47,430 nt of DNA from Candidatus Magnetominusculus sp. LBB02 (GCA_022321325.1 JAKOEO010000005.1:38122-85551), one strand, 5' to 3'. Counted from the first letter of the stretch, positions 2,045 to 11,145 are shown. The notes: generated by a model from the sequence alone, not told the origin. Numbers and translations are program-made.

Positions 2045-2851
2045 ATGCTGGCAAAAGGCGAAGTCATAACATGTAAGTTAATCCCAAAGCCAGAACATTA
2101 TGAGACCTCCGTATTTGCGGTCGAGGACGATGGCATAGTAATAAAGGTCGGGGCTGAGGTAGCGGAGCATTTCAGAAAAGGGCTGCATCTTGTGATTTCC
2201 ACTGAGATGATAGATTATTATACTGAAGTCTCTTTTGTGGACGGTCAATATGTGCACTTGCGGATGCTTGGCACTGAACATCGCGATTTCTTCCGCGTAG
2301 ACGATTGTCTGTCTATAGTTATAAAGAAAATAAATAGTGTGAGCGCTCATAAGAAATCAAAGATTATCTCGGAGTTTGGAAAAGAGATGTCTGACCTCAG
2401 AAGCTATGCTGTGGACATACCTGACGAGAACGTAAGCCCGGTGCTTTGGAAGATGCTGCTTGATATTGATATGAAGCTGGGATTGATTTTAGACAAACTC
2501 TCGCTTGAAAAAGAGGGACTGGCCGATGCCGAGGAGAGGGAGGTCAATATCAGCGCCTCCGGCGTTCGTCTGGCATATCCACACAAGTTTGATGAAGGGG
2601 ATTTGGTCGAGGTGAAGATGCTTCTGCCGTCGTCGCCTCCTGTAGGTCTTATTGTTTATGGGAAGGTTGTCATGGTGGCCTGTATGGAGCAAAGCGACTG
2701 CGAGCTGTCCATTAATTTTATCAACATTGAAGAAGACGTAAGGGATGAGATAATACGATATACGCTGAACAGGCAGAGGGAGATACTTAGAAAACAACGC
2801 GATCATCTCTACAAGGATGTAAGTGTGGACAATGAAAAAAGAAAGCAATAA
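2045..2851 (+). CDS. PilZ domain (c-di-GMP-binding, YcgR-like) protein
   Basis: RDFFR (RxxxR) and NISASG ([D/N]xSxxG) PilZ motifs; directly upstream of motAB. Confidence 0.75.
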   Translation: MLAKGEVITCKLIPKPEHYETSVFAVEDDGIVIKVGAEVAEHFRKGLHLVISTEMIDYYTEVSFVDGQYVHLRMLGTEHRDFFRVDDCLSIVIKKINSVSAHKKSKIISEFGKEMSDLRSYAVDIPDENVSPVLWKMLLDIDMKLGLILDKLSLEKEGLADAEEREVNISASGVRLAYPHKFDEGDLVEVKMLLPSSPPVGLIVYGKVVMVACMEQSDCELSINFINIEEDVRDEIIRYTLNRQREILRKQRDHLYKDVSVDNEKRKQ

Positions 2852-2870
2852 AATAACGGCGGTATAGAAT

Positions 2871-3719
2871 ATGACAGTAATCATAGGCATGGTAATGGTG
2901 ATAGGGGCAATACTTGGGGGCTATTTGATTGAGCATGGCAATGTTGCGCTCCTGCTTAATCCTCCCGAACTTCTGATAATATTCGGGGCGGCAATCGGTT
3001 CTTTGGTTGTTGCAACTCCAATGAAGGTTATTAAGGGATTAATTTCGGGACTCAAATCTATAATGAAAGAGGCCGGTTACACGAAACAGCAATACTTAGA
3101 GATGTTGTCGCTGCTTTTTATTGTGTTTTCCAAGGTGAGAAAGGAGGGACTGATATCCATTGAGCAGGATGTGGAAGATCCAGAGAAAAGCCCAATGTTT
3201 TCAAAGTACCAGAGCGTTATACACAATCATCACGCGCTGCGGTTTATTTGCGATAATTTAAAGGTAATCATAACGACAAATATGCCGCCGCATGAGCTTG
3301 CTGACTTGCTCGACATAGATATCGAGGTCAATGCCCATGAGGAGGCGATGCCGGCTCAGGCGCTTCAGAAGATGGGCGACGCCCTTCCCGGCTTTGGAAT
3401 CGTGGCGGCGGTGCTTGGCGTTGTGTTGACGATGGAGAAGATTGCCGAGCCGCCCACCGTGCTTGGACACTGCATAGGGTCGGCCCTTGTCGGAACGTTT
3501 TTGGGCATATTATTGTGTTATGGATTTGTAGGGCCTATGGCGTCAAACCTTGAGACGAAGGCAAAGGAAGGGGAAATTATGTTTTACGTGATAAAGACGG
3601 CCCTGGTTGCCTTTGTGGGCGGGGCGGCGCCGCAGATAGCGGTAGAATCGGGAAGGAGGGCAATTCCCGGCGGTGACAGGCCGACATTTTCTGAGCTTGA
3701 GCAGGCAGTGAGGAAGTAG
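2871..3719 (+). CDS. motA: Flagellar motor stator protein MotA
   Basis: MTVIIGMVMVIGAILGGYLIEHGN...GALPGFGIVAAVLGVVLTM...ALVGTFLGILLCYGFVGP; adjacent to motB. Confidence 0.95.
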   Translation: MTVIIGMVMVIGAILGGYLIEHGNVALLLNPPELLIIFGAAIGSLVVATPMKVIKGLISGLKSIMKEAGYTKQQYLEMLSLLFIVFSKVRKEGLISIEQDVEDPEKSPMFSKYQSVIHNHHALRFICDNLKVIITTNMPPHELADLLDIDIEVNAHEEAMPAQALQKMGDALPGFGIVAAVLGVVLTMEKIAEPPTVLGHCIGSALVGTFLGILLCYGFVGPMASNLETKAKEGEIMFYVIKTALVAFVGGAAPQIAVESGRRAIPGGDRPTFSELEQAVRK

Positions 3720-4985
3720 ATGAAGGGCCAAAACATCATCATAAAGAGGAAGAAGAAGGGCGGGCATGGCGGCGCTCACGGCGGCTCGTGGAAGGTAGCC
3801 TATGCCGACTTTGTTACTGCCATGATGGCCTTTTTCCTCCTGATGTGGCTCCTGAATATGACCTCAGCCTCCAAGAAGCTCCAGCTTTCGACATACTTTA
3901 AGAATTTGAGCATGTTCTCTGCGATATCAATGTACTTTATAGGCCATGGAAAAGACATCGTGGAATCAAACGTTACCTCATCCCCGCGTGAGGTAAATGA
4001 AACTGTTGAAAACGCGTCTCCTCAAGACGATACTGATGTAGAAAAACTCAAAGAACTGCTTGAAGAGCTGAAGAAACAGATGAAGGCCACTGAAGAGAAG
4101 CTCAAGGCCGCCGCAAACGCAGAGGAGTTGAAGAAGCTTGAGCAGATAAAGGAAAATCTCAAAAAAGAGATGGGAAACGTGGAGGAAAAGATAAAAGACG
4201 CCACATCGCCAAATGGTCCTGCCATAGAGGCTGAAAAATTCAAGGAAAAACTGAAACGCGACATAGGCGAGCTGCTTAAAAAAGAAATTGGGGAAAAAGG
4301 TGCCGGCATAAAAGACCAGGTATTGATAGATGTCATAGAGGGCGGTATAAGAATCCAGATTATTGACAAGACCGGCGAGCCGATGTTTGCCCTTGGAAGC
4401 CCTGAGCTTACGACCAACGCAAAGAGGATTATGAAGGTAATAGCAAAGGATGTTCTTATACTGCGCGATATAAAGATCTCTATTGAGGGCCATACAGACG
4501 CGCTGGGTTATTCGTCCACTAAGTACACAAACTGGGAACTCTCCACCGACAGGGCGTCGGCTGCAAGGAGAGAGTTGGAGCAAAACGGCATTGATCCGGG
4601 GACTTTGTCAAGAGTAGCGGGGTTTGCCTCAACCGAGCCTCTTATAAAAAATAATCCTGACGATCCAAGAAACCGCAGAATAACTCTGATGATATATTCG
4701 ACGAACGCGGCCAATTTACAGTCCGATGTGGTAAAAAAGAATGTGAAGGCCGCACCTGCGAAGGGCGATAATGCCAGCGCACAGGCCGAACTGCTCAGGA
4801 AGATTAAGGCCGCCGCTACAGGCGCCAACGCGGCCAACAGCACTTCTAATGCCCAGGGCGACCAGCTTGAAAAAAGTGTTAAAGCGGCGGTTGGCAATAA
4901 TGAACATGCCAATATAAAAGTCGAGCCAGTGGATCTGCTTAAAGGTAAATCTGCGGGCAGCGGTAACAAGGAGGGAAAGCAATGA
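3720..4985 (+). CDS. motB: Flagellar motor stator protein MotB, with extended periplasmic coiled coil and Ala-rich C-terminal tail
   Basis: GGSWKVAYADFVTAMMAFFLLMWLLN N-terminus; C-terminal OmpA-like domain ISIEGHTDALGY...NWELSTDRASAARRELEQNGI. Confidence 0.95.
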   Translation: MKGQNIIIKRKKKGGHGGAHGGSWKVAYADFVTAMMAFFLLMWLLNMTSASKKLQLSTYFKNLSMFSAISMYFIGHGKDIVESNVTSSPREVNETVENASPQDDTDVEKLKELLEELKKQMKATEEKLKAAANAEELKKLEQIKENLKKEMGNVEEKIKDATSPNGPAIEAEKFKEKLKRDIGELLKKEIGEKGAGIKDQVLIDVIEGGIRIQIIDKTGEPMFALGSPELTTNAKRIMKVIAKDVLILRDIKISIEGHTDALGYSSTKYTNWELSTDRASAARRELEQNGIDPGTLSRVAGFASTEPLIKNNPDDPRNRRITLMIYSTNAANLQSDVVKKNVKAAPAKGDNASAQAELLRKIKAAATGANAANSTSNAQGDQLEKSVKAAVGNNEHANIKVEPVDLLKGKSAGSGNKEGKQ

Positions 4986-7763: not shown

Positions 7764-7847
7764 TGCCAAGAGGCTGATGACAGGCCGGAGCGCCGGGACC
7801 GTTTGAGCGGCAACGTTGAGAATAATTGAAATACAGGAGGTAGTGGC

Positions 7848-8912
7848 ATGAGTGACAAAAACGATGACGCAAAGGCGGCTGTAAATCAAAAAGGACCTGA
7901 AAAGGCTAAAGAGATTGAGCACTTTGGCGGGCCGATTGGCCTCGATATAGGTACGACGAACATTGTCTCAGCCCGTACCAGAGGCTCAAGCGTTCATATA
8001 ACTAAGCAGTTAAACGCGTTTTTCACAGTCCCTGCGTCAAAGATTACCGGCATGACGCTGCTCAAAAACGATGTCCTGTATTTTTCGCAGGGCGGCAGCT
8101 ATTACATAATCGGCAATGCGGCTGATACGTTTGCCAATACATTTAACACAGACACGAGGCGTCCGGTAGAGAGCGGCCTGTTAAGCGCAAAAGAGGACGA
8201 GGCTCTGAATGTGATTCAGTCTATAATCAAAACGCTTGTCCCGCCTCCAAAGAATCAGGGAGACCTCGTATGCTATAGTATTCCCGGCGACCCCATTGAT
8301 ACCAAGATATCTGTTTTACATCATGACACCATTCTCAAGCGTACGCTTCAGGACATGGGATACACCGCAATTGCAATAAACGAAGGCTTTGCCGTAATAA
8401 TGTCCGAACTTGCCGATGAGAGTTATACCGGCATAGGGATAAGCATGGGCGGCGGGATGTGCAACGTGTGCTTTTCATATCTGTCCGTGCCGGTGTTTTC
8501 ATACAGCATTCAAAAGGGCGGCGACTATGTCGATGCAATGGTAGGGGCGGCTGTAGGCGAATCGCAGACAAGAATTAAACTGATCAAAGAAAAAGAGCTT
8601 AATCTCTTGAAAGACCCTAAGAATAAGATTGAGACTTCGCTGTCAATATATTATGAGGACCTTCTTGAGACTCTGATTCTCAGCATACAACGCGTCGTAA
8701 CTACATCGGAGAGCGTACCGAGGCTGACAAAACCTATATCGGTTGTCCTAAGCGGCGGCACCGCGATGCCTGTCGGCGTACGTGAGAAATTTGAAAAGCT
8801 GCTCAAGGCAAACCGTCTGCCTCTTCAGTTCTCATCGGTGAGAATGGCTGAAGACCCCTTGAATACTACAGCAAAGGGCGCTCTGCAGCTTGCCATCGCA
8901 GAGGAGAAATAG
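7848..8912 (+). CDS. Actin-like ATPase domain protein (MreB/FtsA/MamK superfamily, divergent)
   Basis: GLDIGTTNIVSA (phosphate-1), GIGISMGGGMCNVCF (degenerate phosphate-2), VVLSGGTAMPVG (adenosine motif). Confidence 0.75.
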   Translation: MSDKNDDAKAAVNQKGPEKAKEIEHFGGPIGLDIGTTNIVSARTRGSSVHITKQLNAFFTVPASKITGMTLLKNDVLYFSQGGSYYIIGNAADTFANTFNTDTRRPVESGLLSAKEDEALNVIQSIIKTLVPPPKNQGDLVCYSIPGDPIDTKISVLHHDTILKRTLQDMGYTAIAINEGFAVIMSELADESYTGIGISMGGGMCNVCFSYLSVPVFSYSIQKGGDYVDAMVGAAVGESQTRIKLIKEKELNLLKDPKNKIETSLSIYYEDLLETLILSIQRVVTTSESVPRLTKPISVVLSGGTAMPVGVREKFEKLLKANRLPLQFSSVRMAEDPLNTTAKGALQLAIAEEK

Positions 8913-8919
8913 AGCTTGA

Positions 8920-11145
8920 ATGGCCATTCCCATACTGGTCTTCTCTACCGATAAGACAAGGGGCAAGTTATTCTCAAGGATAATTGAAAGCAATGGCTTT
9001 AATGCGAAGCTTTATAACAACAGCGCCGACCTCGATTATGCTGTCAGGACGCGAAGGCCGCACATAATTGTCTTTGACGCAAGACATTGTCAGCCAAGGG
9101 AGTTTCAGTTAGTAGAGTCGTTTCCCGGCAGATTTCCCGATGCCGAGATTATCCTGATTACCTCTGCCGCGGAGTTACCCTCATTTATCTCCGCGGGTTT
9201 CAAAGGTGAAAACTGCTTCTCAGACCCCATCAATCCAGAAGAGATTTCTCTGAAGGTCAAAGAGATTTATTTTATAAAAAATAAGGCGTTTCTGAGGATT
9301 AAGACATATTTTGTTTTATTAGGCGTCTTGCTTAAGGGCATTTTCTCGGGAGACCGCGACAATCCATACATAGTATTTACGAAGAAGATTATTCTGGCAG
9401 GGGCGGCGGCCTTGTCTGTCATGGTTGGGATAGCTGGAGGTTTTATATTTTATAGTATGTCAGATCTTCCAAAAGTACAGCTTCTGGAGAGCTATGCCCC
9501 GTTTGAGTCATCATTTCTGTATGCCGCAGATGGAACGGAGTTGGCAGAGTTTTATCTGGAGAGGCGTAAGTTCGTGCCGTTTTATAAGATACCAAAACAT
9601 GTAAAACAGGCATTTATCGCCGTTGAGGACGCGCGATTTTATGAACATCACGGGATAGATTTTATCAGGACTTTCGGGGCATTTGTTAATAATCTCAGGG
9701 CTGGAGACACTGTCCAGGGCGGCAGCACCATCACTCAACAGCTTGCCAAGATGCTGTTTTTGACCCCTGAGAAAAGCCTCTCCAGAAAGATAAAAGAGGC
9801 CGCTATCTCAATGCAGATTGAGAGCCGGTACAAGAAAGACGAAATACTGGGCTTTTACCTGAATCAGGCGTATTTCGGCGCTCGCGCCTATGGCATAGAG
9901 GCGGCGTCGCAGACATATTTCGGGAAAAAGACCGAAGACCTGGGCGTTGCCGACGCAGCCATGCTTGCCGCCCTTCCCAAGGCGCCCTCTGTATATTCTC
10001 CATTTACGAACCCTAAGAAGGCGTTGATAAGGAGAAATCTTTCCCTGAAATCTATGCTTGACAGGGGATTCATAGACAGGCAGGCCTATGCGGCGGCTGT
10101 CAAAGAACCTGTGCCTGAGTATGTCAACAGAAAGAAATACACGGCGCCATATTTTGTCGAATACATTCGCAGCGCGATGGAACAAAAATTTGGCGACCGC
10201 CTTTACACCGCCGGCTTTAAGATATACACCACGCTTGACCTTCCGTTACAGAAAAAGGCCGAGAAAGCCACAGCCGATGGGAGGGCGGCGTTTGCTAAGG
10301 CGGGGCTTGGCGATGTTGAGGCCGCCCTAATAGCCGTAGATTTAAAGACCGGGGCTATTAAGGCAATGGTTGGAGGTTCGAACTATCAGAAGTCGCAGTT
10401 TAACAAGGCAACGCAGGCTGCAAGGCAGACAGGTTCTGTGTTTAAGCCGATTGTGTATCTGACAGCGTTTAAAAACGGCTACAGTCCTGACGATATGATT
10501 GACGATATGGAGGTGACGTACTCATCCAGCGATGGCAGGCAGCAGTGGACGCCGCACAATTATACAAGAAAATACTATGGAAGAGTAACCTTAAGGACAG
10601 CGCTGTCGCACTCTTTGAATGCGGCAACCGTAGCACTGGCAAACATAGTCGGTATGGACAAGGTAATTTCAACCGCCAGGACAATAGGCATAACAAGCAA
10701 TATATATCCACATCTGCCTGCCGCCATCGGGGTCTCGGAGATGACGCTGCTTGAATTGACTTACGCCTACACGACCTTTGCAAATGGGAAGTCGTTTATC
10801 CCGATGGTTTACGAAAAGATAACTGACAGATACAATATAAAGGTCGAGGACAATGCCCCTAAGGGCGTTCAAACCATTGACCCTGCCAATATAGCGAAGA
10901 TGCACGATGTGCTTGGCGCAGTTGTCACAGAGGGTACGTCGGTTGCGGCGAAGTCTCTGAACAGGACGGTATATGGCAAGACCGGCACGACAAACGATTA
11001 CAAGGACGCGTGGTTTATTGGTTTTGACGATAACATGACCGTAGGCGTATGGGTAGGCAGGGACAATAACCGCCCGATAGGCGAAGGCATGTCAGGGTCG
11101 CGCGCCGCCCTTCCGATTTGGATTAATTTTATGAAGGAAGACTGA
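8920..11145 (+). CDS. Class A penicillin-binding protein (GT51 + transpeptidase, PBP1A family) with N-terminal receiver-like domain
   Basis: aa ~1-115 CheY-like (ILVFSTDKTRGK...HIIVFDARHC...IILITSAAELPSFISAGFKGENCFSDPINPEEIS), TM segment, GT51 (VEDARFYEHHGID, GGSTITQQLAK, KKDEILGFYLNQAYFGARAYGIEAAS), transpeptidase SxxK (SVFK), SLN and KTGT motifs. Confidence 0.93.
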   Translation: MAIPILVFSTDKTRGKLFSRIIESNGFNAKLYNNSADLDYAVRTRRPHIIVFDARHCQPREFQLVESFPGRFPDAEIILITSAAELPSFISAGFKGENCFSDPINPEEISLKVKEIYFIKNKAFLRIKTYFVLLGVLLKGIFSGDRDNPYIVFTKKIILAGAAALSVMVGIAGGFIFYSMSDLPKVQLLESYAPFESSFLYAADGTELAEFYLERRKFVPFYKIPKHVKQAFIAVEDARFYEHHGIDFIRTFGAFVNNLRAGDTVQGGSTITQQLAKMLFLTPEKSLSRKIKEAAISMQIESRYKKDEILGFYLNQAYFGARAYGIEAASQTYFGKKTEDLGVADAAMLAALPKAPSVYSPFTNPKKALIRRNLSLKSMLDRGFIDRQAYAAAVKEPVPEYVNRKKYTAPYFVEYIRSAMEQKFGDRLYTAGFKIYTTLDLPLQKKAEKATADGRAAFAKAGLGDVEAALIAVDLKTGAIKAMVGGSNYQKSQFNKATQAARQTGSVFKPIVYLTAFKNGYSPDDMIDDMEVTYSSSDGRQQWTPHNYTRKYYGRVTLRTALSHSLNAATVALANIVGMDKVISTARTIGITSNIYPHLPAAIGVSEMTLLELTYAYTTFANGKSFIPMVYEKITDRYNIKVEDNAPKGVQTIDPANIAKMHDVLGAVVTEGTSVAAKSLNRTVYGKTGTTNDYKDAWFIGFDDNMTVGVWVGRDNNRPIGEGMSGSRAALPIWINFMKED

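Follow-up and report, generated by a model that had tools for sequence, protein, structure and literature searches.

A Mad28-lineage actin gene and a penicillin-binding protein gene with a pseudo-receiver domain form a conserved pair in magnetotactic-type Nitrospirota

How filaments of the actin superfamily are connected to peptidoglycan synthases is a central question, and a pair of genes in Candidatus Magnetominusculus sp. LBB02 raises it in a form that could be tested with two proteins in vitro, since the penicillin-binding protein (PBP) encoded by the second gene has a candidate domain for the link built in. The pair lies in a window of 47,430 nucleotides (GCA_022321325.1 JAKOEO010000005.1:38122-85551; contig C98 of a 3.47 Mb genome in 142 contigs), by which we mean the whole stretch of DNA that was analysed. 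The first-pass annotation of this window had placed an actin-like gene (354 aa) 7 bp before a PBP gene (741 aa), coordinates and lengths that proved exact, and had proposed that a receiver-like domain at the PBP N-terminus couples a dedicated filament to wall synthesis. The features of the locus are as follows.

7835..7840, + strand: candidate Shine-Dalgarno sequence AGGAGG of the actin gene (sequence read)
7848..8912, + strand: actin-like gene, PBP-linked paralog of the Mad28 lineage (354 aa; Pfam Volactin E 2e-83, motifs, tree)
8901..8906, + strand: candidate Shine-Dalgarno sequence GAGGAG of the PBP gene, within the actin 3' end (sequence read)
8920..11145, + strand: receiver-PBP1A fusion (REC-PBP), class A penicillin-binding protein (741 aa; TIGR02074 609.6 bits, Pfam Transgly and Transpeptidase)
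8920..9285, + strand: cytoplasmic pseudo-receiver domain, residues 1-122 (AF2, Foldseek, alignments)
9286..9387, + strand: juxtamembrane linker, residues 123-156 (position between receiver and transmembrane helix)
9388..9447, + strand: transmembrane helix, residues 157-176 (hydropathy maximum 2.26)
9532..10056, + strand: GT51 glycosyltransferase domain, residues 205-379 (Pfam PF00912 E 5.6e-66; motifs intact)
10327..11064, + strand: transpeptidase domain, residues 470-715 (Pfam PF00905 E 3.4e-31; SxxK/SxN/KTG intact)

The gene pair and its conservation

The candidate Shine-Dalgarno sequence of the PBP gene lies inside the 3' end of the actin gene, suggesting translational coupling. Further upstream in the window (2045-4985), PilZ, MotA-like and MotB/OmpA-like genes stand in a row; these are ordinary flagellar motor genes. 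The window actin was 91% identical to its counterpart in Candidatus Magnetominusculus xianensis HCH-1, the closest named relative, which identifies the host as a magnetotactic-type member of the Nitrospirota. A true MamK (471 bits) is encoded among magnetosome-type genes on contig C58 of the host genome, which also has an MreB-like match separate from MamK. No magnetosome gene cluster was found within the window, whose genes are unrelated to magnetosomes, and a location of the pair in such a cluster was excluded because the cluster with MamK lies on contig C58.

The PBP scored above the cut-off of the PBP_1a_fam model (TIGR02074; 609.6 bits, cut-off 508.75), and the GT51 motifs (E236D..F..H.G and G267GSTITQQ) and transpeptidase motifs (S506VFK, S565LN and K687TG) could be read in it, together with one strong transmembrane helix at about residues 157-176, so that its initial description as a PBP1A with a transmembrane segment and intact catalytic motifs was borne out. 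The better-assembled genomes of the family hold a second, receiver-free PBP1A, which measures about 600-640 aa and shares 55-60% identity, and its retention indicates that the REC-PBP is an added copy and not the housekeeping enzyme. The main REC-PBP group formed one clade (support 100/99).

The window actin, which we call actin A, was found in 16 of the 20 family genomes sampled, at 17 loci in four genera (two loci in genome G010). A REC-PBP gene directly followed actin A at all 17 loci, at a distance of -1 to 54 bp, and a comparison of eight loci showed different genes flanking the pair, even between members of a single genus. The 17 loci include one with a broken frame in the PBP (L040:7830-10083, genome G001, where the REC-PBP is split into two ORFs) and one with a broken frame in the actin (L041:3101-4258, G003, interrupted by a stop), each attributable to assembly error or decay, as well as one (L052) in which the contig ends within the actin gene. 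Among the family genomes without actin A, G004 is 64% complete, and G011 and G012 are without the fusion. In G013 a REC-PBP gene (L180), one of 18 fusions in Nitrospirota, has no adjoining actin; mad28-type genes lie elsewhere in that genome, and one of them has a stand-alone receiver upstream (L071). This weakens the claim that the two genes are always paired: conservation of the actin beside REC-PBP fusions, which had been offered as a check on the first-pass annotation, held at every actin A locus and failed at the G013 fusion.

That exception would also fit unrelated genes that lie side by side by chance or neutrally, a reading that we nevertheless regard as scarcely credible and have excluded, as 17 loci keep the pair while the flanks differ among the eight compared, the arrangement recurs in another phylum, and homologs of the PBP's N-terminal domain adjoin mad28 genes as well. 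The genomic evidence is strong that actin A and REC-PBP form a functional pair. The arrangement is real and conserved, and apparently has not been described so far; a literature search of open-licence papers returned none that links Mad28 or MamK to PBPs or describes the pair.

The actin as a paralog of Mad28

The window actin matched the Pfam family Volactin (PF25216) with 281 bits (E 2e-83) and the MamK model weakly; identity as MamK was rejected, at 48.7 bits against a cut-off of 400 (NCBIfam NF040964). The fold of an ortholog of the window actin matched MreB and MamK in Foldseek. Two actins of the Volactin/Mad28 type are encoded in the host genome, A in the window and B, which has a longer N-terminus. 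B-type copies adjoin mamK and magnetosome genes in the genera g2 and g3, identifying B as Mad28, the magnetosome-associated actin of deep-branching magnetotactic bacteria, of which multiple divergent copies are known in this group (PMC10653835, PMC12713370, PMC12748827). Mad28 forms filaments, and is diagnosed by Ser in place of Asp in the phosphate-2 motif (xxxSxGxGxx) and by a connect-1 motif without Pro (PMC10653835). The window actin has both signatures (phosphate-2 ISMGGG and connect-1 INEG), and equivalent motifs were present in all aligned relatives, A and B alike. Actin A formed its own clade (97/96) among the Mad28-type lineages, grouping with magnetosome-cluster mad28 and Desulfobacterota relatives in a tree of Mad28-type and gas-vesicle-type actins, the latter of which fall apart from the Mad28 group. 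Judged by motifs and tree, the window actin is a Mad28-lineage paralog that lies outside the magnetosome cluster, and not an unknown, dedicated actin.

The two copies differ at the N-terminus, which in actin A comprises 25-39 residues without the amphipathic or coiled YxxEIExLKxRL helix that nearly all Nitrospirota B copies possess. Deletion of the first amphipathic helix of RS-1 Mad28 abolished filaments in heterologous hosts (PMC12713370), and the lack of this helix in actin A therefore counts against a module based on a filament; we consider that actin A probably forms filaments. It also follows that membrane attachment of actin A, if there is any, may come from elsewhere, for which the PBP is the obvious candidate.

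Other actins of these types were seen in passing. Volactin-family actins stand beside gas-vesicle genes (GvpL/GvpF) at L143:7844-8884 (G258; Volactin 336 bits) and L144:8680-9786 (G273), genomes from two further families within the order, and it is possible that they serve gas vesicles. Genome G011, a family member without a receiver match, has two mad28-type actins in tandem with no receiver (L068:7649-10348), and in the same genome a divergent gas-vesicle-type actin lies near a MinD-like gene (L051:8238-9269). In G013, identical 83-aa mad28 C-termini occur at two contig ends (L194:3-254 and L195:9356-9607), one of which adjoins magnetosome genes, indicating a near-identical duplication of mad28 in that genome.

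The pseudo-receiver domain and its stand-alone relatives

Residues 1-122 of the PBP were predicted to adopt a (beta-alpha)5 receiver fold (AF2; pLDDT 89.2, pTM 0.84), and Foldseek returned 330 PDB matches at E<=1e-3, with nearly all of the 50 listed being receivers at a TM score of about 0.78. The match at the level of sequence was marginal: Pfam Response_reg gave 15.1 bits against a cut-off of 30.2, and PDB profile matches to AdeR and NtrC lay near 1e-3, compared with about 100-138 bits for the ordinary response regulators in the window to their best receiver-containing models. A receiver fold with so marginal a match points to a degenerate receiver. With residue equivalence taken from secondary-structure positions and not from superposition, the acidic pair is missing from all aligned rows, its place being taken by an F8-S9 that does not vary among the fused forms, the Lys position holds Asp or Glu across the aligned rows (D102 in the window protein), and the Thr/Ser position is variable; Asp53 is invariant in the fused forms. 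Phosphorylation is unlikely given the loss of the acidic pair and the Lys, and a working phospho-receiver was excluded because the phosphotransfer residues other than D53 are gone or variable. The fold check that had been named beforehand for the N-terminal ~115 residues thus gave a receiver, and what had been called a receiver-like domain stands as a fold but as a pseudo-receiver in function. Its most conserved residues (F8, S9, R14, G15, F52, D53, C99, P103 and P106) lie together on what was once the active-site face, and this face, formed by strand ends and invariant residues, is the probable contact face.

Relatives of this domain occur without a PBP. At 13 B-type (mad28) loci in the family (L053-L055, L057-L059, L061, L063, L065-L067, L069 and L072), a small stand-alone protein of 140-189 aa is encoded directly downstream of the actin, and over its N-terminal part this protein is homologous to the PBP receiver (HHalign 99.7%, E 3.6e-25, 117 columns), sharing FS..RG, D53 and C99...P103..P106 with the fused form. 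These stand-alone proteins have in addition a conserved C-terminal tail with a GFLxIK-like end. In Candidatus Magnetomonas LBB01 the third magnetosome region combines mad28 and mad29 with a hypothetical gene (PMC9376291), which from the gene order is probably the stand-alone receiver. Apparently this receiver is a magnetosome-associated protein that has not been described so far. A gene for a MinD/ParA-like ATPase (Pfam) usually comes next in the mad28 loci, and the order mad28, receiver, ATPase was also found in two further Nitrospirota families (f12 and f15; L141, L142, L146). In a Desulfobacterota genome (L223), mad28 and the receiver are in the same order with no adjacent MinD gene.

A model of the receiver (E<=1e-6) matched 17 of 396 Nitrospirota genomes, 16 of which also hold a Mad28-type actin; the match in the 17th was weak (3e-7, in a 455-aa frame). 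Mad28-type actins were present in 17 of the 396 genomes when two gas-vesicle types were set aside, and the significance that Fisher's test assigns to this overlap is inflated, as the test ignores shared ancestry. Essentially, the receiver family accompanies Mad28-type actins only in these 396 genomes.

The same three parts recur in a second phylum. In G612, a genome of the Desulfobacterota (the phylum of Desulfamplus), an actin, a receiver and a PBP1A are encoded in a row (L227:4647-8121), with 5 bp between actin and receiver and a PBP1A frame that overlaps the receiver end at an offset; the genes may be split there, an A-rich run may hold a frameshift, or the assembly may be in error. The G612 receiver grouped with the fused receivers (95/94) and its actin with actin A (86/94), while its PBP fell inside the REC-PBP group with weak support (57/85). 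Among 17 genomes searched in the small class of G612, no second case of actin, receiver and PBP1A was found. MreB was detected in G612, and no MamK scored above the cut-off. These groupings suggest one old actin-receiver-PBP unit, on branches whose length urges caution.

The distribution of the domain bears on what it binds. Clustering of the conserved residues at the former active-site face would fit a pocket for a ligand or signal, so that the pseudo-receiver could be a regulatory switch or ligand sensor of the PBP, with the actin merely co-expressed and making no filament contact. We consider this unlikely, since the stand-alone domain also follows mad28 genes where there is no PBP, and its constant partner is thus the actin and not the PBP.

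A further candidate partner is the MinD-like ATPase. In CpaE/TadZ proteins a degenerate receiver fold is used for positioning, and the CpaE receivers 4dad and 4dn6 were among the structural matches of the PBP domain in Foldseek. Most mad28 loci have a MinD-like gene behind the stand-alone receiver, so the true partner of the receiver could be this ATPase (Mad29), which would then position the fused PBP. The PBP-linked locus, however, keeps the actin and has no MinD-like neighbour, and at some loci (L223) mad28 and a receiver adjoin with no MinD gene next to them, and we judge this reading to be very improbable.

In both the fused and the stand-alone forms, the partner that is kept is the actin, and the economical reading is that the domain binds Mad28-type filaments. 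The stand-alone receivers behind mad28 and the row of actin, receiver and PBP1A in the second phylum support an adaptor role strongly, if indirectly, and the comparison of sequences and gene orders argues with moderate force that the pseudo-receiver is an actin-binding adaptor. An AF2 prediction on the actin-plus-receiver read-through of one locus (L047, with TGA as a residue), in which a tether of 3 residues joined the two parts and 4 paired rows were available, a set-up ill suited to judging contact, gave a pTM of 0.64 and no confident interface.

A candidate cytoskeleton-to-wall module and known systems

We think it somewhat probable that the pair is a two-gene cytoskeleton-to-wall module, in which the partner domain of a Mad28-type actin was fused to a duplicated PBP1A and ties a filament to a wall synthase. 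The product of the first gene, an actin of the Mad28 lineage, would probably polymerise into filaments. The second gene would derive from a duplicated PBP1A that gained the Mad28-partner pseudo-receiver at its cytoplasmic N-terminus, and this domain would dock on the filament, or on actin subunits, with no phosphorylation involved. The transmembrane helix of the PBP would anchor the filament to the membrane, and its glycosyltransferase and transpeptidase activities would be kept along the filament path. The predicted outcome is peptidoglycan synthesis biased locally along a line selected by curvature, or else a track linked to the wall. Known Mad28 localises by membrane curvature (PMC12713370), which makes a curvature-guided output the likely one. 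Filament formation by actin A, binding of actin to receiver, localised synthesis and the link to curvature are steps that we infer, and for the cellular purpose of the module, curvature-guided wall synthesis or wall anchoring, the evidence is weak.

Anchoring could also be the main function, with the PBP tying the actin filament, and thereby magnetosome chains, to the wall and localised synthesis being secondary. Mad28 positions magnetosome chains at the curved membrane (PMC12713370, PMC12748827), its deletion in RS-1 leaves the chains mislocalised (PMC12748827), and the PBP-linked actin has lost the Mad28 N-terminal helix, so the PBP may supply membrane attachment. Retention of all the glycosyltransferase and transpeptidase motifs speaks against a mainly anchoring role, as does the distribution of MamK, which is not detectable in G612, where the module is present, and is present in G011 and G012, which have no fusion; we find this alternative improbable.

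If the module reading is right, the pseudo-receiver is a candidate direct binding partner for Mad28, and magnetosome-type actins are suggested to act in the control of cell wall or shape, possibly even in cells without magnetosomes. Tentatively, and with some doubt, we go further and propose that a peptidoglycan synthase with its own filament-binding domain, derived from a Mad28 partner, would represent a third coupling of actin to the wall, a curvature-guided track that is independent of MreB, older than a single phylum and able to serve cells that lack magnetosomes.

The nearest known system is Mad28 itself: the window actin has the same lineage and the diagnostic Ser in phosphate-2, and Mad28-type copies are about 47-57% identical to it. 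The window copy differs in its position outside the magnetosome cluster, its separate clade and its lack of the N-terminal helix, and in being tied to a PBP and not to mad29 and magnetosome genes. The hypothetical protein of Ca. Magnetomonas (PMC9376291), probably a stand-alone receiver by gene order, is soluble and small, with a conserved C-terminal tail and no PBP. Haloarchaeal Volactin (PMC10869688) belongs to the same Pfam family as the window actin (PF25216) and has a role in cell shape; it is archaeal, its cells have no peptidoglycan, and the passages searched in that paper mention no receiver partner.

CpaE/TadZ (PDB 4dad, 4dn6) resemble the mad28 locus in that a receiver and a MinD-like ATPase are encoded together. 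They fuse the receiver to the ATPase, whereas here the receiver is joined to a PBP and an actin gene lies alongside, and the MinD-like gene is separate and occurs at mad28 loci only; membership of the PBP domain in CpaE/TadZ was excluded on the ground of this fusion. The GpsB system (PMC6335420) likewise involves cytosolic docking on the cytoplasmic N-terminus of PBPs, but there short mini-domains are bound by a separate adaptor. In REC-PBP a whole folded domain takes that place.

To our knowledge, the known links between filament and synthase, those of MreB/RodZ and FtsA/ZipA, run through separate proteins. The MreB/RodZ elongasome and the FtsA/ZipA divisome likewise use filaments of the actin superfamily to steer the peptidoglycan synthases PBP1A/PBP1B. 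They differ from the pair described here, in which the synthase itself carries the candidate adaptor and the actin belongs to the Mad28 lineage, not to MreB.
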